Made by a program: the position numbers and the translations under genes
The notes under the pieces: generated by a model
Told to the model about the DNA's origin: nothing
Seen by the model: the letters and a program-made list of their open reading frames with translations, nothing else
The model's database searches: none
Virus record (IMG/VR): IMGVR_UViG_3300008108_000042
Coordinates: 1-64,000 of that record
DNA: 64,000 nt
Strand: one strand, 5' to 3'
From: a virus
Shown here: positions 55,811 to 64,000 of the stretch, one piece after another
How positions within the stretch are numbered: position 1 is the first letter of the stretch
Layout of the letters: each line of letters opens with the position of its first letter

Positions 55811-55864
55811 AGTATGGCAGCAAATGGGGGGAAAGTCAAGGGGTTATCTATCAGTGCTGCTTAT
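55811..55864 (-). promoter_or_regulatory. Early promoter P1 with upstream box
   Basis: -35 TTGACT (55834-55839), 17-nt spacer, -10 CATACT (55811-55816). The box ATAAGCAGCACTGAT lies at 55850-55864, exactly 10 nt upstream of the -35. It drives the DUF7249-like gene. Confidence 0.8.
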
Positions 55865-56054
55865 GGGTCAAATAAGAGGGTCTGATAGGTATATTTTGTG
55901 TGGGTCTGGGTAAAATCACTTGACAAGTCGATAAATAACTGCTAAGGTCTACATCAACTCCGCCTATTTTCTGATCATTCTCTCTATACACATCACGAAC
56001 ATATATTTTTTTAGGTATTTCTTTTTCCACAACTTTTTCCACAGAAATTAACAC
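55851..56054 (-). CDS. Hypothetical protein with GTG start (67 aa)
   Basis: An open frame starting with GTG at 56052-56054, next to the stop of the 41-aa gene (56048-56050). The start VLISVEKVVEKEIPKKIYVR is a charged, repetitive segment; the end (IRPSYLTHKQH) is encoded by the upstream box of promoter P1, as several other gene ends here run into these boxes. Codon pattern is plausible, but the non-ATG start makes this call moderate. Confidence 0.5.
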   Translation of the reverse strand: MLISVEKVVEKEIPKKIYVRDVYRENDQKIGGVDVDLSSYLSTCQVILPRPTQNIPIRPSYLTHKQH

Positions 56055-56102
56055 AAATTGTGGAAAACTTCCGCAACTAACATAGAAACATAGTTTTCCA
56101 CA
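56023..56102. other. Cluster of four TTTTCCACA nonamers (DnaA-box-like)
   Basis: Perfect TTTTCCACA occurs on the plus strand at 56023-56031, 56035-56043 and 56094-56102, and on the minus strand at 56059-56067. This fits the bacterial DnaA-box pattern TTWTNCACA, and TTTTCCACA is the form I associate with cyanobacteria. All lie inside small coding frames; two arise from a VEKxVEK protein repeat, so chance is not excluded. Confidence 0.5.
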
Positions 56103-56173
56103 TCCGCATCATCTAGAAACAAAAGTTCTTCTAACACGATTTCATCTAGTGGGAGATCTTCAGAGAATGACAT
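56048..56173 (-). CDS. 41-aa acidic protein (unknown)
   Basis: Starts MSFSEDLPLDEIVLEELLFL and ends AEVFHNLC. It overlaps the end of the 92-aa gene by 14 nt in another frame and reads as one amphipathic acidic helix pair. The overlap and lack of a strong ribosome site suggest coupling to the upstream gene. Confidence 0.6.
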   Translation of the reverse strand: MSFSEDLPLDEIVLEELLFLDDADVENYVSMLVAEVFHNLC

Positions 56174-56438
56174 CAGGATCAGCACCAACAGATTTAATCA
56201 TTTCAGAGACATCTTCATCATCATAGTATAAACGAAGTTCTGCAATCAGTTCATCTTGTTCTAGTCCTGAGACATTATTTACAATCGTATCGAATACAAA
56301 TTGTTCCATCGTTTTCATGTCCATGCTATCAACCAACTGAGTTGCATAGTTATCAACGAGGTCAGAGAGTTGTGCTTCGGTCAGCATAGTTTTAGAGGGT
56401 TCAGATTTAAGGACTTCAATGTAAAGATCTTCAGTCAT
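56160..56438 (-). CDS. Acidic helical protein (92 aa, unknown)
   Basis: Starts MTEDLYIEVLKSEPSKTMLT, then EAQLSDLVDNYATQLVDSMD, FVFDTIVNNVSGLEQDELIA and LRLYYDDEDVSEMIKSVGAD. Composition is acidic and helical throughout with no known motif. The layout is familiar from cyanophage hypothetical proteins. It overlaps the 34-aa gene by 8 nt. Confidence 0.72.
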   Translation of the reverse strand: MTEDLYIEVLKSEPSKTMLTEAQLSDLVDNYATQLVDSMDMKTMEQFVFDTIVNNVSGLEQDELIAELRLYYDDEDVSEMIKSVGADPDVIL

Positions 56439-56535
56439 CTTTCTTCTTAGTTGTTGAATTGTGAGAAAAAAGTATAGGACGAATCTGTTTAGTATTGGTG
56501 CGAATTGCGTTTGTTTGACGTTGTTGACGGGACAT
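56431..56535 (-). CDS. 34-aa basic protein (unknown)
   Basis: Starts MSRQQRQTNAIRTNTKQIRP and ends NSTTKKKDD. Very basic and Gln/Thr-rich, probably disordered. Its stop lies inside the start region of the next gene and its start is 2 nt after the stop of the 49-aa membrane protein gene, so it fits the tight packing here. Confidence 0.55.
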   Translation of the reverse strand: MSRQQRQTNAIRTNTKQIRPILFSHNSTTKKKDD

Positions 56536-56537
56536 GA

Positions 56538-56687
56538 TTAGTTGCCTTGAATGATGTCAGCAGCAGTGTGAAGTACCTCTCCTGTTGTATATCGTACCGA
56601 GGGATTGAAGATAAACAACAGGAGGAAGATTAGACCTAGAACTTTCATCTTATCAGGTGACTTGAAAGTGAGAGTTTTAGAGGACAT
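56538..56687 (-). CDS. Small membrane protein (49 aa)
   Basis: Starts MSSKTLTFKSPDKMKVLGLI; one hydrophobic segment (VLGLIFLLLFIFN) followed by a soluble tail (YTTGEVLHTAADIIQGN). An internal ATG at MKVLG would give a 36-aa version, which matches how I recall similar cyanophage proteins starting. It begins 2 nt past the 104-aa gene's stop. Likely in the host inner membrane. Confidence 0.68.
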   Translation of the reverse strand: MSSKTLTFKSPDKMKVLGLIFLLLFIFNPSVRYTTGEVLHTAADIIQGN

Positions 56688-56689
56688 CT

Positions 56690-57004
56690 TCAGTTCAGAC
56701 GCATACCAGAGAAGAAAGGAATCGTCATGCCATTGTAACGAATGAACCACTTAAAGTCTTTCTGAAAGACATACTCACCAGGGCAACCATGCTCGGCAAG
56801 AATAGCATTGAGGCGGGACTTTGTGGTAACAGTTTGCCAACCACCATCGAAAAGTTCAATCCAAGTTTCACCAATGCGAGCGATCAGATTACCATGCAGG
56901 TACACATCGCTGGAGTTAGTATAAGAAATGACTTCGGTATTCTTACACTTCCAATCTTTGCCGTTGGTGATAGCAGTGTTCATTTGGCGTTCGATTTGGC
57001 GCAT
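56690..57004 (-). CDS. 104-aa hypothetical protein
   Basis: Starts MRQIERQMNTAITNGKDWKC. The middle (YLHGNLIARIGETWIELFDG, GWQTVTTKSRLNAIL) suggests a small beta-rich domain, and the end has KWFIRYNGMTIPFFSG. I recall similar proteins in other cyanophage early clusters. It is the first gene after boxed promoter P2; CAGGAAAC in the shared leader acts as its ribosome site. Confidence 0.75.
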   Translation of the reverse strand: MRQIERQMNTAITNGKDWKCKNTEVISYTNSSDVYLHGNLIARIGETWIELFDGGWQTVTTKSRLNAILAEHGCPGEYVFQKDFKWFIRYNGMTIPFFSGMRLN

Positions 57005-57030
57005 TTGAGGCGTTTCCTGATTACCTTGTA

Positions 57031-57084
57031 AGGATAGAACGGATCGGGCAGAAAGTCAAGCGTTTTGAGATTAGTGTTGCTTAT
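57031..57084 (-). promoter_or_regulatory. Early promoter P2 with upstream box and shared leader
   Basis: -35 TTGACT (57054-57059), 17-nt spacer, -10 TATCCT (57031-57036), box ATAAGCAACACTAAT (57070-57084) 10 nt upstream of the -35. Downstream is the leader CTTACAAGGTAATCAGGAAA, which is shared with P3 and, in large part, P7. Confidence 0.85.
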
Positions 57085-57102
57085 CAGACTGATTAGCAAC
57101 GA

Positions 57103-57270
57103 TTATCGATTCTTATATTGACAATCAGGGGAAAACTCTTTAATCTGTTCGCAGATTTGTGCCTGACGTTGTTTGTATGCATCAAACATTTTGTTATCAC
57201 GTTGGATCAGAAATACGTTCCAACCGAGAATAGCAGCAAATGCAAGTGTGGCGTAAAGATAGAGTTTCAT
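57103..57270 (-). CDS. Small membrane-anchored protein (55 aa)
   Basis: Starts MKLYLYATLAFAAILGWNVF, an N-terminal membrane anchor, followed by a charged helix (QRDNKMFDAYKQRQAQICEQ). Ends SPDCQYKNR with two cysteines. Function unknown. Confidence 0.7.
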   Translation of the reverse strand: MKLYLYATLAFAAILGWNVFLIQRDNKMFDAYKQRQAQICEQIKEFSPDCQYKNR

Positions 57271-57289
57271 GATTCAATTTAGAATTAAA

Positions 57290-57562
57290 TTAAACGAGGC
57301 AAAGTGCAGGAGCAGGTTGAACCAAATAGGAGAAACGTGTTGCCGTTACAGATGCACCAGCAAGACCAATCTCATCTACAATCTCCCACTCATCTTCCAT
57401 CTCACGAATTACAACATAACCGAAAGTTCCTGCGATTGGCATTTGCTCAAGACCACAACGTTCTGCCTGTCGTTGAGTGCTAAAACGCTCTTTACGATTC
57501 CACCAACCGAGACGATTTACGTCTTCAGAAGGTCCGAAACTGATGCAAATGTATTCAGGCAT
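57290..57562 (-). CDS. 90-aa hypothetical protein
   Basis: Starts MPEYICISFGPSEDVNRLGW and runs through RKERFSTQRQAERCGLEQMP and GTFGYVVIREMEDEWEIVDE. An alpha/beta pattern with several aromatic residues; no catalytic motif seen. It follows the 53-aa gene by 3 nt. Confidence 0.72.
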   Translation of the reverse strand: MPEYICISFGPSEDVNRLGWWNRKERFSTQRQAERCGLEQMPIAGTFGYVVIREMEDEWEIVDEIGLAGASVTATRFSYLVQPAPALCLV

Positions 57563-57565
57563 GAT

Positions 57566-57727
57566 TTACACAGAAGGAGTAACGTTGATCTCTTTAATGT
57601 TCAACCCACAGAGTTGATTGTAGACCCGATTGAGAATAAGTTTGTCGGCGGTCTTTGCCTTTGATTTCTCATACCAAATGGTCACACATCCATCGTAGGT
57701 CTCAACACGAACACGATAGTTTTTCAT
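57566..57727 (-). CDS. 53-aa hypothetical protein
   Basis: Starts MKNYRVRVETYDGCVTIWYE; a short beta hairpin, a helix (KSKAKTADKLILNRVYNQLC) and a final strand (LNIKEINVTPSV). A small beta-alpha-beta fold is likely. Its ATG overlaps the stop of the 60-aa gene. Confidence 0.7.
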   Translation of the reverse strand: MKNYRVRVETYDGCVTIWYEKSKAKTADKLILNRVYNQLCGLNIKEINVTPSV

Positions 57728-57906
57728 GCGTTGTCGATTAGATCTTGTTCAATCTGGTGAAGTGTACTTACTGTCCAGTTCTCAGGATTACCATGAGGAG
57801 CATACAGTTGACTATAGCGAAGACCATAAAGATCAGGATTTAGATGTTGCAACTGTTCAAGAGTTTCAGCGATCTTAACGCTGATTTGGTGTTGATAATC
57901 ACTCAT
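57724..57906 (-). CDS. 60-aa hypothetical protein
   Basis: Starts MSDYQHQISVKIAETLEQLQ. Helical at both ends, with a central GLRYSQLYAPHGNPENW loop. The stop overlaps the next ATG (ATGA-type coupling). Confidence 0.68.
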   Translation of the reverse strand: MSDYQHQISVKIAETLEQLQHLNPDLYGLRYSQLYAPHGNPENWTVSTLHQIEQDLIDNA

Positions 57907-57909
57907 GAT

Positions 57910-58074
57910 TCAGTAGTTAGAAACAACGGTGAAGATGATGCCAGTTTCGTTATAACGAAGAGTCACATCACAGTAATACTCTTCAGACAGATTGTAGGCG
58001 AGATCGTATGCCTTATCCATGTCAGTGGTAGTGTTCTCCCACGGTGCAGCGGGGCAAAGAACATCAACTCGCAT
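57910..58074 (-). CDS. 54-aa hypothetical protein
   Basis: Starts MRVDVLCPAAPWENTTTDMD. A helix (KAYDLAYNLSEEY) and two strands (CDVTLRYNETGIIFTVVSN) suggest a small compact domain. First gene after promoter P3, with CAGGAAAC as ribosome site. Confidence 0.7.
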   Translation of the reverse strand: MRVDVLCPAAPWENTTTDMDKAYDLAYNLSEEYYCDVTLRYNETGIIFTVVSNY

Positions 58075-58100
58075 TTGTTTCGTTTCCTGATTACCTTGTA

Positions 58101-58154
58101 AGGATAGGACGGATCACGCCAAAAGTCAAGCGTTTTGAGATTAGTGTTGCTTAT
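58101..58154 (-). promoter_or_regulatory. Early promoter P3 with upstream box and shared leader
   Basis: -35 TTGACT (58124-58129), 17-nt spacer, -10 TATCCT (58101-58106), box ATAAGCAACACTAAT (58140-58154). Nearly identical to P2 over some 75 nt, including the leader. The box supplies the stop codon of the 79-aa gene upstream. Confidence 0.85.
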
Positions 58155-58390
58155 CGAAGAATGTGCCGATAATCAATTTCCCTAATCAACCAACCTGATT
58201 GTGTTGCAATCTCTTCGCACAGTTCGTATGCTATATCAGCATCATCTGCATCGTTGTTTAGATCTAACTCAAAGATCTGTCCAATATAACGAGAGGGCAA
58301 AAACTCTTCAGTTTCAAGTTGATCTTGCTCACTCCAATCGTCATCATCAAGTGAACAATCAAATGCGATGTCAGTAACTTGAACTTGCAT
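58151..58390 (-). CDS. Acidic 79-aa hypothetical protein
   Basis: Starts MQVQVTDIAFDCSLDDDDWS and continues EEFLPSRYIGQIFELDLNND, ADIAYELCEEIATQSGWLIR and EIDYRHILR. Acidic first half; the second half looks like a small alpha/beta domain. I recall similar sequences in cyanophage genomes. The stop lies in the P3 box. Confidence 0.73.
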   Translation of the reverse strand: MQVQVTDIAFDCSLDDDDWSEQDQLETEEFLPSRYIGQIFELDLNNDADDADIAYELCEEIATQSGWLIREIDYRHILR

Positions 58391-58392
58391 GA

Positions 58393-58521
58393 TTATTTGC
58401 GGAGAGGAGAATTGAAATAACGACGGAAAGCAGTAACAAGAATGATACCCGTCGAAATAACACCAACGAGACCAAGGAAGGTAACAGCATCGCCGCTGAA
58501 AGTGTAAGTATCAGGGTTCAT
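58393..58521 (-). CDS. 42-aa single-span membrane protein
   Basis: Starts MNPDTYTFSGDAVTFLGLVG, hydrophobic through VISTGIILVTAF, ends RRYFNSPLRK. Positive-inside rule gives N-out, C-in. Its ATG overlaps the stop of the 80-aa gene (TGATG). Confidence 0.7.
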   Translation of the reverse strand: MNPDTYTFSGDAVTFLGLVGVISTGIILVTAFRRYFNSPLRK

Positions 58522-58763
58522 CAAAGTCCTCCTGCTTGATTAACAAATGATTTAGCATCGCAAACTGTATCAAAGTATGCGATAGTTTCAAGATCAACAG
58601 CAGCAGCACCTGCAGCGAGATCTATATTCTTTACCTTACGAAGTTCGAATCCTTCGAGAACACCACCATAAATCTCACCAATATATTGTCCATCGAGAAA
58701 GATCCATTCTTGATAGTTAGGATCTGCCATGTTGCGCTCGTATGCAATAGAATTGTTGTTCAT
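58521..58763 (-). CDS. 80-aa hypothetical protein
   Basis: From the ATG at 58761-58763 (AAGG 8 nt upstream), the protein starts MNNNSIAYERNMADPNYQEW. It continues IFLDGQYIGEIYGGVLEGFE and LAAGAAAVDLETIAYFDTVC. A TTG start three codons earlier is less likely. Beta strands followed by a helix (DAKSFVNQAGG). Function unknown. Confidence 0.7.
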   Translation of the reverse strand: MNNNSIAYERNMADPNYQEWIFLDGQYIGEIYGGVLEGFELRKVKNIDLAAGAAAVDLETIAYFDTVCDAKSFVNQAGGL

Positions 58764-58768
58764 GATAA

Positions 58769-58915
58769 TCAACCTTGAGAAGCGTAGGACATCATTGCAA
58801 TCACTTTATCGTACAGTTTCTCTACATCAACACCAACAGTTTCGGACACTTCTTGCCAATCATCATGAAAAGTGATAAGATCAGCGATTGCGGAAAGTTC
58901 GTCTGGAGTGAACAT
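58769..58915 (-). CDS. 48-aa acidic helical protein
   Basis: Starts MFTPDELSAIADLITFHDDW, then QEVSETVGVDVEKLYDKVIA. Two helices; first gene after promoter P4. Function unknown. Confidence 0.68.
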   Translation of the reverse strand: MFTPDELSAIADLITFHDDWQEVSETVGVDVEKLYDKVIAMMSYASQG

Positions 58916-58938
58916 TTGTTTTCTTTGCTTACCTTGTA

Positions 58939-58992
58939 AGGATAGAACGGATTGCGGGAAAAGTCAAGCGTTTTGAGATTAGCGTTTCTTAT
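58939..58992 (-). promoter_or_regulatory. Early promoter P4 with upstream box
   Basis: -35 TTGACT (58962-58967), 17-nt spacer, -10 TATCCT (58939-58944), box variant ATAAGAAACGCTAAT (58978-58992). The initial leader (TTACAAGGTA) matches P2 and P3. Confidence 0.82.
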
Positions 58993-59015
58993 GGGTTAGA
59001 TAAGAGACTCAAATG

Positions 59016-59594
59016 TCAGTTTTCCAGCATTTCAGTGATAATAGGACCGAGCACATCTTGAAAGAAAGTGAAGAACTCAGTAGACGTAAATGGTACGTTT
59101 CCAAGTGTATCAATCATCCAATTTACACCATACACAGTGATACCTTTCTTGCCATACTTCTTGATCACACTAGTCGGAACTTCAGCAATACAGGGCACAA
59201 AATACCCAAACTGCACAGGCAAATTATACTTTGCTTCCACTGCTTCCTTTACATCGAGCACCTTCTGATTAGATGCTGGATTCTTCTCACTATCGAAGTT
59301 CAGATTACACTTGCTTTCAAGATATTGAATTGCACCACTTTTAGCAAAGAGATGATCTAACTGACGCTCACGCCCATTTACATCAATTCGATTGCTTTCT
59401 TCGATGAGATTAACTGAACAATCGCTAATTACCTTGTTCCAGAAGATTTCAAGTTGATTGCCTAATTGAATGAGCACACCATTTTGTGATACTTTATCAC
59501 CCAATCCTGCTGCTGCCAGCAAATAACTTTCCGTCTTTTTACGCTCAATTTGCAACACCAAGGGAAGCAGATTGTCAGTGAGATAGTTGTTCAT
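59016..59594 (-). CDS. Putative PD-(D/E)XK-type nuclease
   Basis: A 192-aa protein. The segment RERQLD80HLFAKSGAIQYLE93SK95CNLNF has the spacing and hydrophobic pattern of a PD-(D/E)XK active site (D ... ExK), with E49 in the preceding helix as a possible further ligand. The C-terminal half (LPVQFGYFVPCIAEVP, YGVNWMIDTLG) is compatible with the remaining core strands. It could be a restriction-type or host-DNA-degrading nuclease. No methyltransferase partner is seen. The family is not one I can name, so function is inferred from the motif. Confidence 0.6.
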   Translation of the reverse strand: MNNYLTDNLLPLVLQIERKKTESYLLAAAGLGDKVSQNGVLIQLGNQLEIFWNKVISDCSVNLIEESNRIDVNGRERQLDHLFAKSGAIQYLESKCNLNFDSEKNPASNQKVLDVKEAVEAKYNLPVQFGYFVPCIAEVPTSVIKKYGKKGITVYGVNWMIDTLGNVPFTSTEFFTFFQDVLGPIITEMLEN

Positions 59595-59615
59595 TTGTGG
59601 TGATAATGAGGGTTT

Positions 59616-59738
59616 TCAGTCGTTCCAATACTCATCATATTCTTCTTCCGACATAGCAAACACCTTTGCAATCTCTTCACGATCTTCTTCACTAATGTCG
59701 AAGATTTCGCCTTGCATGTCAGCAATTTCGTCCCACAT
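59616..59738 (-). CDS. 40-aa strongly acidic protein
   Basis: Starts MWDEIADMQGEIFDISEEDR and ends AMSEEEYDEYWND; about a third of residues are Asp or Glu. First gene after promoter P5 and directly before the nuclease-like gene. Such acidic mini-proteins can mimic DNA, but nothing shows this here. Confidence 0.65.
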   Translation of the reverse strand: MWDEIADMQGEIFDISEEDREEIAKVFAMSEEEYDEYWND

Positions 59739-59762
59739 GTGCTTTGTTTCGATTACTTTGTA

Positions 59763-59816
59763 ATGATAGAACGGATTGCCCCAAAAGTCAACCCCTGAAA
59801 GATCAGTGTTGCTTAT
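59763..59816 (-). promoter_or_regulatory. Early promoter P5 with upstream box
   Basis: -35 AGTCAA on the plus strand, TTGACT on the minus (59786-59791); 17-nt spacer; -10 TATCAT (59763-59768); box ATAAGCAACACTGAT (59802-59816). Drives the 40-aa gene and the nuclease-like gene. Confidence 0.8.
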
Positions 59817-59819
59817 GGG

Positions 59820-60713
59820 TCACCATGCCTTTGCCAAGTTAAAGTTATTGAAACTAAAGACTTGACGATTGACTAGTTTGAGCGTACCATAATCGTTCGA
59901 CATCACATAACCTTCGTGATCCGCAATTTGTCCATCAATATAACAGCAAACTCCGTATTCAGGAATAATCAAGTTCATGAAATCTTGCTTGATAGACATA
60001 ATCATGCGGTAAAATGCGAACAATGCGACATCATAACCAGTTTCTTCCGCAAGTGCTGCGGGGTCAATATCTTTGCCTTCACGAATATAACGATTGAGCA
60101 CAATCTTGAGATCTTTTGCTTGCTTTTCAGTCACAAAATCAACAGCAGCAGACAAGAACATTGCACTGCAAACTTTACGTTGCAGTGCAACATTTGCAAT
60201 AGGATCTACCTGAGCACCAAACTTGACAAAATAGACTTTATCATTGCTGATCAGTTCAGGTACATCAAACGATGCAACTACATCACGAAGATTATCACCA
60301 GTGTACGAAGTATGGCAAGCAATGATAAACTGTTGCTTGATGATATTGTCAAACTTATAGGTGATAGTATTAGGGCGATAGGTATCATCACCACCGAAAC
60401 CAATAAAATCACCTTGCACAATACCTTTGATGCGAGGCAGACAATCAAATGCTACATGCAAAATATCAGCAACTTTACCCTCATGGTTAGCATCAATCAA
60501 CTCATGAGAATAGTTGATCTTGATTTTCTTTTTATTGAAGACAGATTTAGTACCAACGAAGAACTTTCCAGTTTCAGGATCAGTGCCAAACACAATAGCA
60601 GGAGCACCATCCCATTTGATGCTAACTTTGCCAGAATGAGTGAACCAATCCAGCACTGACATATCGCCAGTGAGAATAAGATCTTCAGGATGTTCGAGAT
60701 GGGTGTTTTTCAT
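59820..60713 (-). CDS. Predicted ATP-dependent RNA/DNA ligase-like nucleotidyltransferase
   Basis: A 297-aa protein with covalent nucleotidyltransferase motifs in order: motif I K33-W-D-G (VSIKWDGAPAIVFG), FVGTKS at 52-57, a motif III-like GDFIGFGG at 101-108, motif IV E267-G-Y-V and motif V LK279LV. K33 would be the adenylated lysine. Motif IV EGYV resembles T4 RNA ligase 1. The N-terminal HLEHPEDLILTGD is a conserved-looking stretch in phage relatives. An RNA ligase (for example tRNA repair) or a nick ligase are both possible; no C-terminal domain of known type is seen. Its ATG starts 7 nt after the -10 of P6, so the transcript may be leaderless. Confidence 0.72.
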   Translation of the reverse strand: MKNTHLEHPEDLILTGDMSVLDWFTHSGKVSIKWDGAPAIVFGTDPETGKFFVGTKSVFNKKKIKINYSHELIDANHEGKVADILHVAFDCLPRIKGIVQGDFIGFGGDDTYRPNTITYKFDNIIKQQFIIACHTSYTGDNLRDVVASFDVPELISNDKVYFVKFGAQVDPIANVALQRKVCSAMFLSAAVDFVTEKQAKDLKIVLNRYIREGKDIDPAALAEETGYDVALFAFYRMIMSIKQDFMNLIIPEYGVCCYIDGQIADHEGYVMSNDYGTLKLVNRQVFSFNNFNLAKAW

Positions 60714-60719
60714 GCTTTA

Positions 60720-60773
60720 AGTATGGCACACAATCAGGCAAAAGTCAACCCCTGAATGATCAGCGTTGCTTAT
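60720..60773 (-). promoter_or_regulatory. Early promoter P6 with upstream box
   Basis: -35 TTGACT (60743-60748), 17-nt spacer, -10 CATACT (60720-60725), box ATAAGCAACGCTGAT (60759-60773). Only 6 nt separate the -10 from the ATG of the ligase-like gene. The box shares bases with the stop of the gene upstream. Confidence 0.8.
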
Positions 60774-61048
60774 CAGACAGAATAGGTCAACTTATCTTTT
60801 AACTTTTGCATCGCACTGTAGGGTGTAGTTTTATTCAGATCAACTACACTTCCAACGGTTGTGCTATTCTTTGGTGCGTGGAATTGTTTTGTCTTGGTGT
60901 TGTAGAATCCCCAGATACAACGACATTCATCACCCAAATTGTAATCAAACCTACGATCAAAATAAATCCAGATTGCAATAACATTGCTCTTAAAGTCTGT
61001 GCGCTCATAGTGATAACCTTCGGGTGCTTTATGAAATAATAGTTTCAT
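60773..61048 (-). CDS. 91-aa hypothetical protein, cyanophage type
   Basis: Starts MKLLFHKAPEGYHYERTDFK and includes IAIWIYFDRRFDYNLGDECR, CIWGFYNTKTKQFHAPKNST and a final basic helix. I recall this GFYNTKTKxxxAPxNSxxVG pattern from other cyanophage early regions. The start overlaps the 47-aa gene's stop (ATGA). Confidence 0.75.
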   Translation of the reverse strand: MKLLFHKAPEGYHYERTDFKSNVIAIWIYFDRRFDYNLGDECRCIWGFYNTKTKQFHAPKNSTTVGSVVDLNKTTPYSAMQKLKDKLTYSV

Positions 61049-61188
61049 GTGAATACTGCTGTAACTCCTATCACTTTAGCAGTAGGATTGCGAGCAAGTG
61101 CAGTACGCTTAGCATCAGCATAATCTCGTGCTTCAACTATCTCATCGAACACTTTGCCAGCAACATATAACTGAACTTTGCACTTCAT
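61045..61188 (-). CDS. 47-aa hypothetical protein
   Basis: Starts MKCKVQLYVAGKVFDEIVEA, then RDYADAKRTALARNPTAKVI, ending GVTAVFT. A beta-beta-alpha-beta mini-domain (strand, EARDYADAKRTAL helix, strand) like other phage mini-proteins. ATGA overlaps on both sides. Confidence 0.72.
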   Translation of the reverse strand: MKCKVQLYVAGKVFDEIVEARDYADAKRTALARNPTAKVIGVTAVFT

Positions 61189-61367
61189 CGTGTTTGATTA
61201 CGATACTTTCTCTTGACATATTTGCTCACAATATTATCAATCACAGGATACCATGGTTCTTTATTGCTAGGGTATCCAAGTTGCCGTGCTTCAGTGAGCA
61301 ACATCATGATGCAGTTCTCTTCTTCTTGAGTGAGATTGAGGTAATTGATAATACTAGTTTCAATCAT
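61185..61367 (-). CDS. 60-aa hypothetical protein
   Basis: Starts MIETSIINYLNLTQEEENCI, continues MMLLTEARQLGYPSNKEPWY, ends KYVKRKYRNQTR. Helical with a basic C-terminus. Shares one base with the 76-aa gene's end and overlaps the 47-aa gene (ATGA). Confidence 0.72.
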   Translation of the reverse strand: MIETSIINYLNLTQEEENCIMMLLTEARQLGYPSNKEPWYPVIDNIVSKYVKRKYRNQTR

Positions 61368-61597
61368 CAGTAGTGTGCTTCAGAGTAATCGAGTTGTGCA
61401 GAGTATTCTGCAATTTTATCGAAACACTTTTTACGCATTTCGGTATCAGCACCTTGCATAAATGAGAAGCAATACTTCATACGCTGTTCAGGATGTGCAT
61501 TGATGCGAGCAATCTCTGCCTTCGATTTGTTGTATGCGGCATTATATGCAAACATTTCACGATCTTCGATGCTCATGGTGTGAAACTTGCGGTTCAT
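61367..61597 (-). CDS. 76-aa hypothetical protein
   Basis: Starts MNRKFHTMSIEDREMFAYNA, with AYNKSKAEIARINAHPEQRM and ADTEMRKKCFDKIAEYSAQL. All-helical and charged. First gene after promoter P7, using the shared CAGGAAAC ribosome site; heads the 76-60-47-91-aa run. Confidence 0.74.
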   Translation of the reverse strand: MNRKFHTMSIEDREMFAYNAAYNKSKAEIARINAHPEQRMKYCFSFMQGADTEMRKKCFDKIAEYSAQLDYSEAHY

Positions 61598-61619
61598 GTC
61601 GTTTCCTGATTACCTTGTA

Positions 61620-61673
61620 ATAATAAGGCAAAAGGGGGCAGATGTCAACCCCCTATTGATCAGCGTTACTTAT
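61620..61673 (-). promoter_or_regulatory. Early promoter P7 with upstream box and shared leader
   Basis: -35 TTGACA (61643-61648), 17-nt spacer, -10 TATTAT (61620-61625), box ATAAGTAACGCTGAT (61659-61673). The leader TTACAAGGTAATCAGGAAAC matches P2 and P3. Confidence 0.85.
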
Positions 61674-61690
61674 GAGTATGATAAAGTATT

Positions 61691-61813
61691 TTAATATGTC
61701 ATATTGTCATCAATTCTATAGTCTTCAGGATCACCGATGGTATCATCTTCCATCACATCATCAATCCAATCACGATTAAGTTCATCGCATTGAATGTCAT
61801 CAAAAATGTTCAT
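61691..61813 (-). CDS. 40-aa acidic mini-protein
   Basis: Starts MNIFDDIQCDELNRDWIDDV, then MEDDTIGDPEDYRIDDNMTY. Strongly acidic. ATGA overlap with the basic 43-aa gene before it. Confidence 0.65.
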   Translation of the reverse strand: MNIFDDIQCDELNRDWIDDVMEDDTIGDPEDYRIDDNMTY

Positions 61814-61941
61814 GATTGTTTCTTTAATTTCTGAATAAATTGGTTACGTTGTTTCTTGAGTTGACGTGTTCGAGCAGAACGTTTAGGAGATTTATCGTTT
61901 CTCCCTTGTTTTCTCGGTGTTTCGTGTGATTTGAGGTGCAT
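61810..61941 (-). CDS. 43-aa very basic mini-protein
   Basis: Starts MHLKSHETPRKQGRNDKSPK, then RSARTRQLKKQRNQFIQKLK. Nearly half of residues are Lys, Arg or His; a nucleic-acid-binding peptide is plausible. Coupled to the acidic 40-aa gene by an ATGA overlap. Confidence 0.65.
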   Translation of the reverse strand: MHLKSHETPRKQGRNDKSPKRSARTRQLKKQRNQFIQKLKKQS

Positions 61942-61946
61942 TGTTC

Positions 61947-62096
61947 TTACTCATAGTCATAATCTATGATATAATCTATACTATAATCATCATATTCAAT
62001 TTCATATTCTTCATCTGTTATGATTGGTTCTCTAAACTCTTTAACCCATTCAGAGAGAGATACTGTTGTAGAATACGGATTGAACTTGTTATACAT
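61947..62096 (-). CDS. 49-aa acidic mini-protein with Asp/Tyr-rich tail
   Basis: Starts MYNKFNPYSTTVSLSEWVKE and ends in an unusual acidic-aromatic tail (DDYSIDYIIDYDYE). It lies 10 nt after the 58-aa gene and 5 nt before the 43-aa gene. Confidence 0.65.
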   Translation of the reverse strand: MYNKFNPYSTTVSLSEWVKEFREPIITDEEYEIEYDDYSIDYIIDYDYE

Positions 62097-62106
62097 GAGT
62101 TAGTCC

Positions 62107-62283
62107 TCAACGTTGATAATCTTCTTCAGAGAACTCATCATAGATCTTTTCTAGTTTTCGTTGGCGATTATTCTGTTTTTTAACATCATAACTGAACTCA
62201 TCATGGAAACGAAACCTAGTAGAAACTTTGTTTCGATGTGACTTTGGAGTATAGTCACTGTTACGACGGAAAGTTTTACCCAT
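62107..62283 (-). CDS. 58-aa basic mini-protein
   Basis: Starts MGKTFRRNSDYTPKSHRNKV, continues STRFRFHDEFSYDVKKQNNR, ends with an acidic DEFSEEDYQR. First of four mini-genes in a row after the promoter at 62356-62384. Function unknown. Confidence 0.65.
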   Translation of the reverse strand: MGKTFRRNSDYTPKSHRNKVSTRFRFHDEFSYDVKKQNNRQRKLEKIYDEFSEEDYQR

Positions 62284-62355
62284 GTTTAATGTGATTTAAG
62301 CAATGTAAAGTACAATTTATTTAGACGACATGCAATCATTTTTGATTGCCTAGAC

Positions 62356-62384
62356 ATCATAGACCTCTTGCCAGTTGTTGTCAA
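62356..62384 (-). promoter_or_regulatory. Sigma70-like promoter P9 for the mini-gene run
   Basis: -35 TTGACA (62379-62384), 17-nt spacer, -10 TATGAT (62356-62361). No box at the usual 10-nt distance; a partial match (ATCAGCGGGTTGC, plus strand) lies 11 nt further upstream, inside the helicase stop. A small hairpin (62332-62349) and a CTAAATA motif (62318-62324) follow before the 58-aa gene. Confidence 0.7.
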
Positions 62385-62406
62385 TAGGTCCAGTTTGGAA
62401 AGTGGA

Positions 62407-63636
62407 TCAGCGGGTTGCCACACTGATAGCAGGCAGACCTTGCACGAAGATGGTGTCAACAACCCCTTGCAATCTCTTGGCAATAGCACTACCATAGTTG
62501 GTGAACACTGGCACGATCACACTACCAAACTGTTTGCGATACAGATGACATGCACCTGCAGGAATACGACCAGCAGCAATATCCTTGGCATCATCTTTGT
62601 CCATACGGATAACACGACCGACAGTTTGTGCCATCTCGATGATAGGCATTTGACGCAACATGATGCAGTTGGTGAGACCAGGAACGTTGATACCTTCGGA
62701 AAGAATACTATAGTGAAGGAGCACAAACTTCTTGGATTTGTCTTTGCCCCACTCAGTCAGAGTGTCAAAGAACTTCTCACGATTGACCTTGGTACGATTA
62801 ACATAGGCACCGTGCTTAGAAGTGATGTGAAGGATGCCAAATCCACGCTCTTCAAGTTCCCTAAGAATGTCAGAGTTAGTGAGCATGTTCCACATCACTT
62901 TGGTGCTGGGAGCAGCAACGAGCACCTTAGGATTGCCCTCCAGAGTGTCAAGAATGTCAACAATCATGTTACGATCTGCCTCAGCAGCAGTACGCTTATC
63001 ACGGGTGATGTCTACTTTGTAGGTATCAACTTGTGGAGGAATGATGCAACCAGTGTCAATCAGTTCTTTAGCAGCAACGTTGTGAATAATGTTGCCGTAG
63101 ATGCTAACGTTGTTCATGCCGTTAGCATTAGGATTGGTATGATGTTTGGGAGTTGCAGTGAAGAAATACTTGCTATCTGCAGACATCGAAGTAGCAGCAA
63201 CAGCAATAAAGTGAGACTTTTGAGTAGAATTGTGTGCCTCGTCGAAGTATGCTACATCAACATTCACACCAGCATCAACAACACGACCCAGAGAATGATA
63301 GGTAGTGAAGATGATACGATTGGTGCCTGCATGTTGAGTAACCCAATCCGCAATCTTGTCGGATTTGGTAGTAGAATAGTGATGTGTCTCACCACTATGA
63401 ACGTGCATCACATTTGCAGAGGTGATAAACTCAAGAAACTCTGCAGAGAGTTGCTCAGCAAGCAGAATACGAGGTGCTACAACAACAGCAACCTGACCAG
63501 GATTCTGCACAAAACGTTGCAGCAAGTTCATGATCATAACAAGAGTTTTCCCACCACCAGTAGGAAAAATAATTTGCCCAATATCGTGCTGGTTCATTGC
63601 ATCGAGAGCACGAGATTGATGTAGACGTAATTTCAT
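62407..63636 (-). CDS. Superfamily II DNA/RNA helicase
   Basis: A 409-aa protein if started at MKLRLHQSRALDAM. An upstream ATG at 63652-63654 would lie at the predicted transcription start of P8, so I prefer the internal one. Motifs: Q-like LHQSRALDAM, Walker A PTGGGKT at 25-31, Ia APRILLAEQL, DEAH at 132-135, TATPK at 160-164, and motif VI QTVGRVIRMD near the C-terminus. This is the layout of UvsW/type III restriction-like SF2 helicases. T4 UvsW (503 aa) is longer, with an extra N-terminal domain. A role in recombination or replication restart is likely; phages of this type often carry UvsW separately, so I leave the symbol blank. Confidence 0.88.
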   Translation of the reverse strand: MKLRLHQSRALDAMNQHDIGQIIFPTGGGKTLVMIMNLLQRFVQNPGQVAVVVAPRILLAEQLSAEFLEFITSANVMHVHSGETHHYSTTKSDKIADWVTQHAGTNRIIFTTYHSLGRVVDAGVNVDVAYFDEAHNSTQKSHFIAVAATSMSADSKYFFTATPKHHTNPNANGMNNVSIYGNIIHNVAAKELIDTGCIIPPQVDTYKVDITRDKRTAAEADRNMIVDILDTLEGNPKVLVAAPSTKVMWNMLTNSDILRELEERGFGILHITSKHGAYVNRTKVNREKFFDTLTEWGKDKSKKFVLLHYSILSEGINVPGLTNCIMLRQMPIIEMAQTVGRVIRMDKDDAKDIAAGRIPAGACHLYRKQFGSVIVPVFTNYGSAIAKRLQGVVDTIFVQGLPAISVATR

Positions 63637-63657
63637 AACAAAGTCGATCACCATGTA

Positions 63658-63711
63658 AATATCCCATAAAAAAGAGGGTTTGTCAACCCCCTATTGATCA
63701 GTAAAACTAAT
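63658..63711 (-). promoter_or_regulatory. Early promoter P8 with degenerate upstream box
   Basis: -35 TTGACA (63681-63686), 17-nt spacer, -10 GATATT (63658-63663). The box position (63697-63711) reads ATTAGTTTTACTGAT, a degenerate form that keeps the CTGAT end and the 10-nt distance. The CAATAGGGGG linker is identical to that of P7. Confidence 0.7.
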
Positions 63712-64000
63712 CATCAACATTAAATATCTTTATCAAATCTTGCTTTTCATCATATTTTCCCATTAATTTATCATTTATGCTACACCATTGTAGCAGTTTA
63801 TCCTCACAAAAATATGCTTCTTCTCCATATTTTTGTCTTAGCATTTCTTCGTAACTATCATATGAACTTCGTCTGTACATATAATGACCATACAAATGCG
63901 TTTCTAATCTATGGCAGATTACACACAACTGTTCGCAATTCTTCAACTCTAATTGAAGTTTTTCATATAATTTTTTCTTTTTATTAGGATCGTCTACACG
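63707..64000 (-). CDS. HNH endonuclease-like protein, C-terminal part (gene runs off right edge)
   Basis: The frame is open from the right window edge for 97 codons. LKNCEQLCVICHRLETHLYG is the final part of an HNH zinc-finger domain (C-x2-CH-x3-T). It is followed by a Tyr/Glu-rich tail (MYRRSSYDSYEEMLRQKYGE). The first part of the domain is beyond the edge. It could be a homing endonuclease or a packaging-related HNH protein. Its stop lies in the P8 box. Confidence 0.65.
   Translation of the reverse strand, partial: RVDDPNKKKKLYEKLQLELKNCEQLCVICHRLETHLYGHYMYRRSSYDSYEEMLRQKYGEEAYFCEDKLLQWCSINDKLMGKYDEKQDLIKIFNVDD

Follow-up and report, generated by a model that had tools for sequence, protein, structure and literature searches.

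Eight sigma70-like promoters in the DNA of a T4-like phage are each preceded by a 15-nucleotide (nt) box at a fixed distance from the -35 hexamer, which raises the question of which protein reads this box. The promoters lie at 55811-63711 of the window, as the whole stretch analysed is called here (64,000 nt; positions 1 to 64,000 of the IMG/VR virus record IMGVR_UViG_3300008108_000042). The full record has 68,760 bases, and its bases 1-65760 match a 176,692-base IMG/VR contig (G010) at 99.998%. The nearest named phage to the window is Synechococcus phage S-CREM1, and the presence of the T4 gp59, UvsY and late coactivator families is that of a T4-like phage. As judged from sequence comparison, the boxes are probably operators of the host regulator RbcR, set one helical turn nearer to the promoter and activating presumed early phage genes. 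The early timing is presumed because these genes stand in a region of small open reading frames (ORFs).

The promoters P1-P8, which had been listed in a preliminary description of the window, were all found on the minus strand (Table 1), each composed of the box, 10 nt, TTGAC(T/A), 17 nt and a -10 hexamer. The -10 hexamers from P1 to P8 are CATACT, TATCCT (three times), TATCAT, CATACT, TATTAT and GATATT. The deviating boxes of P1 and P4 differ at a single position each; the degenerate P8 lies beyond the limit of three mismatches for the box followed by N10 and TTGAC, with the dyad kept (ATTAGTTTTACTGAT). Within that limit, seven copies of this arrangement were found in the window, compared with 0.08 expected from 100 shuffles; whereas the box alone occurred 39 times against 21 expected. 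With up to two mismatches, the box was found 12 times in the 68,760-base record, and eight of these are at promoters. Several gene stops had been described as built into the box; the boxes of P1, P3 and P8 do contain the end of an ORF, and another ORF overlaps the P6 box by one base. The ORFs ending at P1 and P8 have GTG and TTG, respectively, as start codons, and are not certain to be genes. The view that the box differs from a normal UP element also holds, as there are no A/T tracts, the 10-nt spacer is rich in G or C next to the -35, and G and C are conserved in the box.

The box is an imperfect dyad, ATNAG-N5-CTNAT, and all eight copies fit it, P8 included. Each has T at position 2 and A at position 14, and matches 8-9 of the ten arm positions of ATAAGN5CTTAT. 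The T-N11-A pattern is the form of LysR-type sites. Twelve matches to AT.AG.....CT.AT were counted in the record of 68,760 bases; eight are the boxes, one is a partner site (55872-55886), and three fall within ORFs (11924, 14513 and 54209). The idea that the box should be rare away from promoters therefore stood for this phage, with nine of the 12 dyad sites at promoters. In viruses at large, the bare exact 15-mer is mostly away from such promoters. Among the viral matches listed for the exact bare 15-mer, with the loci of box, N10 and TTGAC excluded, 88 of 102 had no TTGAC within 60 nt. Five of the loci without TTGAC (L058, L070, L074, L097 and L152) have a weak -35 and a -10 instead.

To find partner sites, all upstream offsets were scored for the ten arm positions, and at least 7/10 was taken as a partner. 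All eight window promoters have a second dyad, at -22, at -32 or, for P2, at both (Table 1). A non-redundant set of 63 promoters was collected from related contigs and S-CREM1, preselected on the box and a spacing of 10 or 11 nt. In this set, a second dyad was found at -22 in 22 promoters, at -32 in 11, and at either in 32; whereas the mean at other offsets was 0.37. In S-CREM1 and S-H38 together, 7 of 13 promoters have one (13 of 16 matches, with three weak S-CREM1 matches omitted). Boxes of S-CREM1, a phage of Synechococcus CB0101, stand for example at 76423, 83375 and 85652. The spacings equal two and three helical turns, which argues for a protein binding as two dimers, rather than for chance or duplication; two phased sites per promoter are a LysR habit. 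Across the 63 promoters, the dyad is mostly flanked by G/C on both sides, and the arms are kept while spacer and flanks vary. The -35 and -10 are separated by 17 nt in 59 of them and by 18 nt in four. Boxes standing head-to-head 22 bp apart were also observed between divergent promoters in the related contigs G011 (117100-117136) and G009 (85422-85458), and at 57070-57106 of the window, where they face a weak plus-strand promoter.

The preliminary description had called the 10-nt spacing invariant. This is true of the window (8/8), but the relatives have either 10 or 11 nt. The exact box followed by N10 and TTGAC is present in 46 stretches of viral contigs, and the spacing in the 63-promoter set is 10 in 41 and 11 in 22, where the search pattern allowed only these two values and thus the spacing is not provable from the set. 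It was based instead on matrix scans over gaps of 5-35 nt, and on a matrix of host sites; the nulls were first-order Markov sequences, four per genome. The phage-promoter matrix was trained partly on loci of G003, G004, G009, G011, G015 and S-CREM1, with G010 and S-H38 outside the training. At gaps of 10/11 nt it gave 12 matches in G010, nine in S-CREM1 and seven in S-H38 (nulls 0.75, 0.75 and 0.25); the G010 tally includes one TTGAAG -35 and one match pointing away from P2. The counts were 26, 9, 5, 9 and 6 in G003, G004, G009, G011 and G015 (nulls 2.75, 0.50, 0.75, 0.25 and 0), the G003 tally including one TTGGCA -35. In the phages without box promoters, they were one each in Syn9 and S-PM2 and zero in S-RIP1 and Bellamy. 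The other 29 gaps, pooled, were nearer to the null (18 vs 13.75 in G010, 18 vs 8.25 in G011, and 19 vs 11.75 in G009), and the excess at other gaps in some phages is partly due to partner sites at 32/33.

The second matrix was built only from 41 host sites before csoS1 (see below), with the promoter pattern TTGAC-N16-18-(T/C)ANNNT. At gaps of 10/11 nt it found 10 matches in G010, seven in S-CREM1, six in S-H38, 23 in G003, eight in G004, four in G009, six in G011 and five in G015, with nulls of at most 0.07 in these eight box-bearing phages. No match at these gaps was found in Syn9, S-PM2, Bellamy and S-RIP1. At 32/33 the matrix found six, one, three, zero, four, four, three and zero in the eight phages in the same order, and the remaining 50 gaps, pooled, gave 0-7. 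The median identity to G010, from strong matches only, is 45.7-47.7% for the box-bearing G003, G009 and G011, and 54.2-58.4% for the box-free Syn9, Bellamy and S-PM2. The box-bearing phages are thus more distant from G010 than the box-free ones, so the box does not follow phage descent.

The same dyad was found in the host family. In 121 Cyanobiaceae genomes, the perfect form SATAAGN5CTTATS occurs at 74 sites, compared with 23 for the reversed pattern. Twenty of the 74 sites were inspected, picked non-randomly for recurring sequence or long contigs, and 18 of them are outside any ORF of at least 100 amino acids (aa). Seven are located 110-113 bp before a gene of a BMC-domain shell protein (csoS1; one example named by Pfam), which is followed by rbcL. 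Three (L330, L332 and L340) precede a Fer2 ferredoxin gene (petF; one example by Pfam) by 128-139 bp, and this gene is possibly a further member of the host regulon. Five (L329, L334, L338, L339 and L342) are beside a CbiX gene, one example of which was named by Pfam. At the perfect host box by cbiX, TTTTCCAC-like repeats follow within the next 100 bp in at least L329, L334, L338 and L339, and resemble DnaA boxes. No Rfam or tRNA match was found at the 15 of the 20 inspected loci that were checked.

A csoS1 match is present in 57 of 61 Cyanobiaceae genomes; the upstream regions of 50 of the 57 were taken, and nine of the 50 were dropped for a misfit to the start-codon pattern, leaving 41. All 41 readable regions have the dyad, with 8-10 of ten arm positions, and all have TTGAC 42-44 nt past it (exactly 43 in 39). 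A conserved GTGAT ends 21 nt before TTGAC, which puts a half-site on the proximal side, at 22 bp from the distal csoS1 dyad. On this reading, the host sites stand 43 and 21 nt before the -35, and the phage pairs 32/33 and 10/11 nt. The phage module resembles the 22-bp host pair shifted by one helical turn towards the -35. In the phage promoters with a -32 partner, the distal site is at 42/43 nt, which equals the host position.

The candidate protein is a LysR-type regulator of the host. The LysR domain (PF00126) occurs exactly once in 44 of the 61 Cyanobiaceae genomes, more than once in 10, and not at all in seven, so that 54 have it; whereas none of the 11 phage records searched has it. Ten of 12 host copies are orthologues (a reference and nine others with 78.6-87.5% identity to it), and the other two share 28%. 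The host protein is most likely RbcR, a name that draws on its uniqueness and on its target. For Prochlorococcus MED4, RbcR is listed as the sole LysR-type regulator (PMC6778093). In Synechocystis, the rbcR gene is reported to be essential. According to a 2026 review citing Bolay 2022 (PMC13249358), RbcR of Synechocystis has the consensus ATTA(G/A)-N5-(C/T)TAAT, regulates its own gene, and activates from about 90 nt before the start; its targets are RuBisCO, carboxysome and carbon-uptake genes. The review adds that it can also repress from about 10 nt upstream of the start, and that the RbcR of algae responds to ribulose bisphosphate (RuBP), 3-phosphoglycerate (3-PGA) and NADPH. A response of the phage promoters to metabolites may be supposed. 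The phage dyad fits this published consensus, which comes from Synechocystis. Of the 63 promoters, 50 have A at arm position 3, seven have C and six have T, and the consensus has T there. With the start assumed to be 7 nt after the -10, the phage sites are centred at -53/-54 (main) and at -75/-76 or -85/-86 (distal), and the host csoS1 site at -86, compared with about -90 for the activating RbcR position in the review.

Taken together, these features suggest the following mechanism. An RbcR dimer would bind the promoter-proximal dyad, centred at about -53/-54, and a second one would occupy the distal dyad, centred at about -75 or -85 (22 or 32 bp further upstream), in the manner of a LysR tetramer. 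Placed on this face of the DNA, the activator may assist the RNA polymerase of the host, carrying the primary sigma factor, and the small-ORF region, presumed early, could be transcribed from injected phage DNA without a phage factor. Two features favour activation: the box lies ahead of the -35 on a constant face of the helix, and some relatives keep the box before weak -35s (TTGCC and TTCCC). The preliminary description had offered either an activator site or an altered contact of the RNA polymerase alpha or sigma subunit. The former is favoured by the fixed helical spacing, the dyad symmetry, the paired sites and the boxes before weak -35s. An altered contact need not be invoked: the csoS1 promoter of the host is preceded by this dyad too and has a half-site at the 22-bp distance, and the RbcR consensus fits.

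Several observations weigh against the proposed role of RbcR. The hosts of box-free cyanophages should also have RbcR, yet the box is missing from those phages: Syn9, S-PM2 and Bellamy showed no box promoters beyond chance in relaxed scans, and P-SSM2, S-SM2, S-BM3, S-SRM01, S-CRM01 and others showed none by ATAAG-type patterns, which variants may escape. The phage MA10, from the same host strain as the box-bearing S-H38, has only two box-like matches, without a promoter (one of the two was inspected). The arrangement also differs between phage and host. The phage box is one turn nearer to the -35, and the strict form (box, 10/11 nt, TTGAC and a -10) was found in 0 of 201 Cyanobiaceae genomes, which rules out host promoters of the same strict form as those of the phage. 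The phage-like core ATAAGNAACNCTNATS, with its AAC centre, occurs at seven sites compared with 13 for the control in 61 genomes. The host proximal element reaches 7/10 in only one of the 41 csoS1 regions, and its mean score is 5.05 at gap 21 vs 4.54 at gap 30. No such box precedes the LysR gene of the host itself (10 orthologues, up to 350 bp upstream, best 6-7/10), and no NCBIfam model scored above its cut-off for the LysR protein; the best models were other LysR families, with CbbR fourth. Moreover, the phage -35 is near consensus, so that an activator may not be essential, and only 4 of 25 promoters in G003 have a partner site.

The box might instead be read by a phage-encoded DNA-binding protein, analogous to MotA of T4 or Ogr of P2, with these promoters serving as middle promoters. 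The spacing, the dyad and the 10/11-nt arrangement found only in phages would suit such a dedicated factor, and one report (PMC5780444) describes marine T4-like cyanophages as lacking T4-like middle promoters and motA and/or asiA. However, no protein was found in all seven box-bearing records and in none of three box-free phages, although the seven include two fragments, and a small, diverged protein might escape. The best candidate, a protein of 58 aa, is present in five of the seven and missing from S-H38; the Arc-annotated phrog_730 is present in the box-free Syn9, and was not found in the box-bearing G003, G004 and G009. The Pfam matches of 101 G010 proteins, including most of 10 window ORFs, comprise no helix-turn-helix family, and those related to transcription are sigma-70 region 2 and the late coactivator. 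A matrix made from host sites alone also recovers the phage boxes. A phage regulator, which the preliminary description had kept among its candidates, is therefore quite unlikely, and a host factor is favoured because of this phyletic result and the perfect-dyad search in host genomes. A MotA-type middle promoter was ruled out by the -35 TTGAC in all eight promoters, with no MotA box near -30 in its place.

The other explanations concern what binding would achieve, or deny it. The boxes could mainly be decoys, by which replicating phage DNA titrates RbcR off the RuBisCO and carboxysome genes and shuts down carbon fixation. G010 has about 10 promoter boxes, many with a second dyad, and G003 has 25. 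A CP12-domain gene in G010 would also suit the decoy model, since the CP12 product restrains the Calvin cycle; that protein fits an interest of the phage in host carbon fixation. A decoy would not need a fixed promoter spacing, and the 10/11-nt rule argues for transcription, so that this explanation is very improbable as the main function; whereas a decoy effect may be additional. A repressor role of RbcR, in which the metabolic state would decide when the brake is released, is equally hard to favour. The repression about 10 nt upstream of the start reported in the review (PMC13249358), phage sites that are nearer than those of the host, and -35 and -10 elements good enough alone would agree with it; but a site centred at -53 is clear of the -35 and -10, and the weak -35s behind the box in several relatives are expected for activation. 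That nothing binds, the box being left over from the duplication of promoters and the shuffling of genes, can hardly be credited. The near-duplicate pair of P2 and P3 (91% over 86 bp) is what duplication would leave; however, the 63 non-redundant promoters keep the dyad arms despite a varying spacer and flanks, the partner sites are at exact helical distances, and distant phages share the box.

Binding by RbcR can be compared with known systems. The phage sites resemble the cyanobacterial RbcR operators (Bolay 2022, as reported in PMC13249358) in the dyad (ATNAG-N5-CTNAT vs ATTA(G/A)-N5-(C/T)TAAT) and the T-N11-A form, and the Cyanobiaceae dyad before csoS1 likewise has a TTGAC promoter. They differ in that the main phage site is at -53/-54 rather than about -86/-90, the strongest phage site is the proximal one, and the phage sites are reiterated before many genes. 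Pho boxes and NtcA sites, which are also sites of host nutrient regulators, have been predicted in cyanophage genomes before (Sullivan 2010, PMC3037559); in the text consulted, pstS was the worked case and no fixed module over a promoter set was described. In the consulted portions of the literature on cyanophages with RbcR or LysR, host-factor phage promoters, RbcR of Prochlorococcus, and cyanophage promoters, no report of RbcR at phage promoters was found.

The activator sites of P2 Ogr and P4 delta lie near -55, and are likewise dyad operators close to -55 on sigma-70 promoters; whereas their factor is phage-encoded and their sequence is different, and no such protein was found here. In T4, the early promoters have a UP-like upstream region and the middle promoters depend on MotA. 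The promoters described here are also host sigma-70 promoters in a T4-like phage, as in the T4 early and middle classes (partly after PMC5780444), but they have a LysR-type dyad instead of A-tracts or a MotA box.

A wider proposal is more tentative, and somewhat short of probable: a set of cyanophages might keep the presumed early region, with about 5-25 promoters per phage, under the host carbon-fixation regulator, so that takeover would sense the carbon and redox state, while the sites would also draw RbcR away and reduce the synthesis of RuBisCO and carboxysomes. If true, this would link host photosynthesis directly, at the molecular level, to the expression of cyanophage genes, and would offer a cause of light-dependent infection that can be tested; a single protein and a single DNA motif would be enough for testing. 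The reading predicts the operator at the csoS1 promoter throughout the Cyanobiaceae, and would provide a sequence tag for phages using RbcR.

Table 1. Promoters P1-P8, their partner dyads and the genes behind them in the window.
Feature	Positions	Strand	Sequence	Details
P1	55811..55864	-	ATAAGCAGCACTGAT	box 55850-55864, -35 55834-55839, -10 55811-55816
P1 partner dyad	55872..55886	-	ATCAGACCCTCTTAT	-22, 9/10 dyad positions
Gene behind P1	55487..55765	-		DUF7249
P2	57031..57084	-	ATAAGCAACACTAAT	box 57070-57084, -35 57054-57059, -10 57031-57036
P2 partner dyads	57092..57106	-		-22, 8/10; also 57102-57116 at -32, 8/10
Gene behind P2	56690..57004	-		Kyano_Gp96 (PF23790)
P3	58101..58154	-	ATAAGCAACACTAAT	box 58140-58154, -35 58124-58129, -10 58101-58106
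P3 partner dyad	58172..58186	-	ATTAGGGAAATTGAT	-32, 7/10
P4	58939..58992	-	ATAAGAAACGCTAAT	box 58978-58992, -35 58962-58967, -10 58939-58944
P4 partner dyad	59000..59014	-	ATTTGAGTCTCTTAT	-22, 8/10
P5	59763..59816	-	ATAAGCAACACTGAT	box 59802-59816, -35 59786-59791, -10 59763-59768
P5 partner dyad	59834..59848	-	ATAACTTTAACTTGG	-32, 7/10
P6	60720..60773	-	ATAAGCAACGCTGAT	box 60759-60773, -35 60743-60748, -10 60720-60725
P6 partner dyad	60781..60795	-	ATAAGTTGACCTATT	-22, 8/10
Gene behind P6	59820..60713	-		DUF6267 / phrog_455, no assigned function; matches in 469 phage records
P7	61620..61673	-	ATAAGTAACGCTGAT	box 61659-61673, -35 61643-61648, -10 61620-61625
P7 partner dyad	61681..61695	-		-22, 7/10
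P8	63658..63711	-	ATTAGTTTTACTGAT	box 63697-63711, -35 63681-63686, -10 63658-63663 (GATATT, weak)
P8 partner dyad	63719..63733	-		-22, 7/10
Gene behind P8	62407..63654	-		DNA helicase (phrog_16)

Some further matches of the box were observed apart from promoters of the window type. In the genome search, 14 matches were examined, and none has TATNNT or CATNNT 17 nt past the -35; L166 has GATAAT at 16. Five of the 14 are from Prochlorococcus: L156 and L165 are antisense within ORFs with a Porin_4 match, and the other three share their flanks. Single box-like matches in P-HM2, S-SCSM1, S-SKS1, S-SRM01 and S-SCSM2R have no such promoter behind them. A dyad that precedes a -35 by 22 nt, ahead of a cobS/MoxR gene, was set aside, as it overlaps coding sequence in three phages. 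In the loci L002, L009 (near 6031), L017 (near 4421), L041, L046 and L110, the box is followed by a TTTTGTATCACCACGAACTAC-like element instead of TTGAC (a variant in L002), and several loci of this type have the -10 about 54 nt past the box, about two turns beyond the usual. The boxes with a TTTTGTATCACCACGAACTAC-like element are possibly a second promoter class.

At P7 and P8 (window 61630-61665 and 63665-63700) and at the loci L058, L061 and L074, the -35 is in the loop of a hairpin formed by a G-run and a C-run and followed by T's, for example GGGGG TTGACATCTG CCCCC TTTT. At these five places, the promoter apparently overlaps with a terminator that belongs to the unit upstream. Elsewhere, 23179-47403 of the window is an ORF of 8,074 aa. 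S-CREM1 also has a long ORF, annotated as 'baseplate wedge subunit' (98218-114486), which lies past the small-ORF region that this phage also has, and its record (OP535465) has an annotated glnA riboswitch at 164232-164330.

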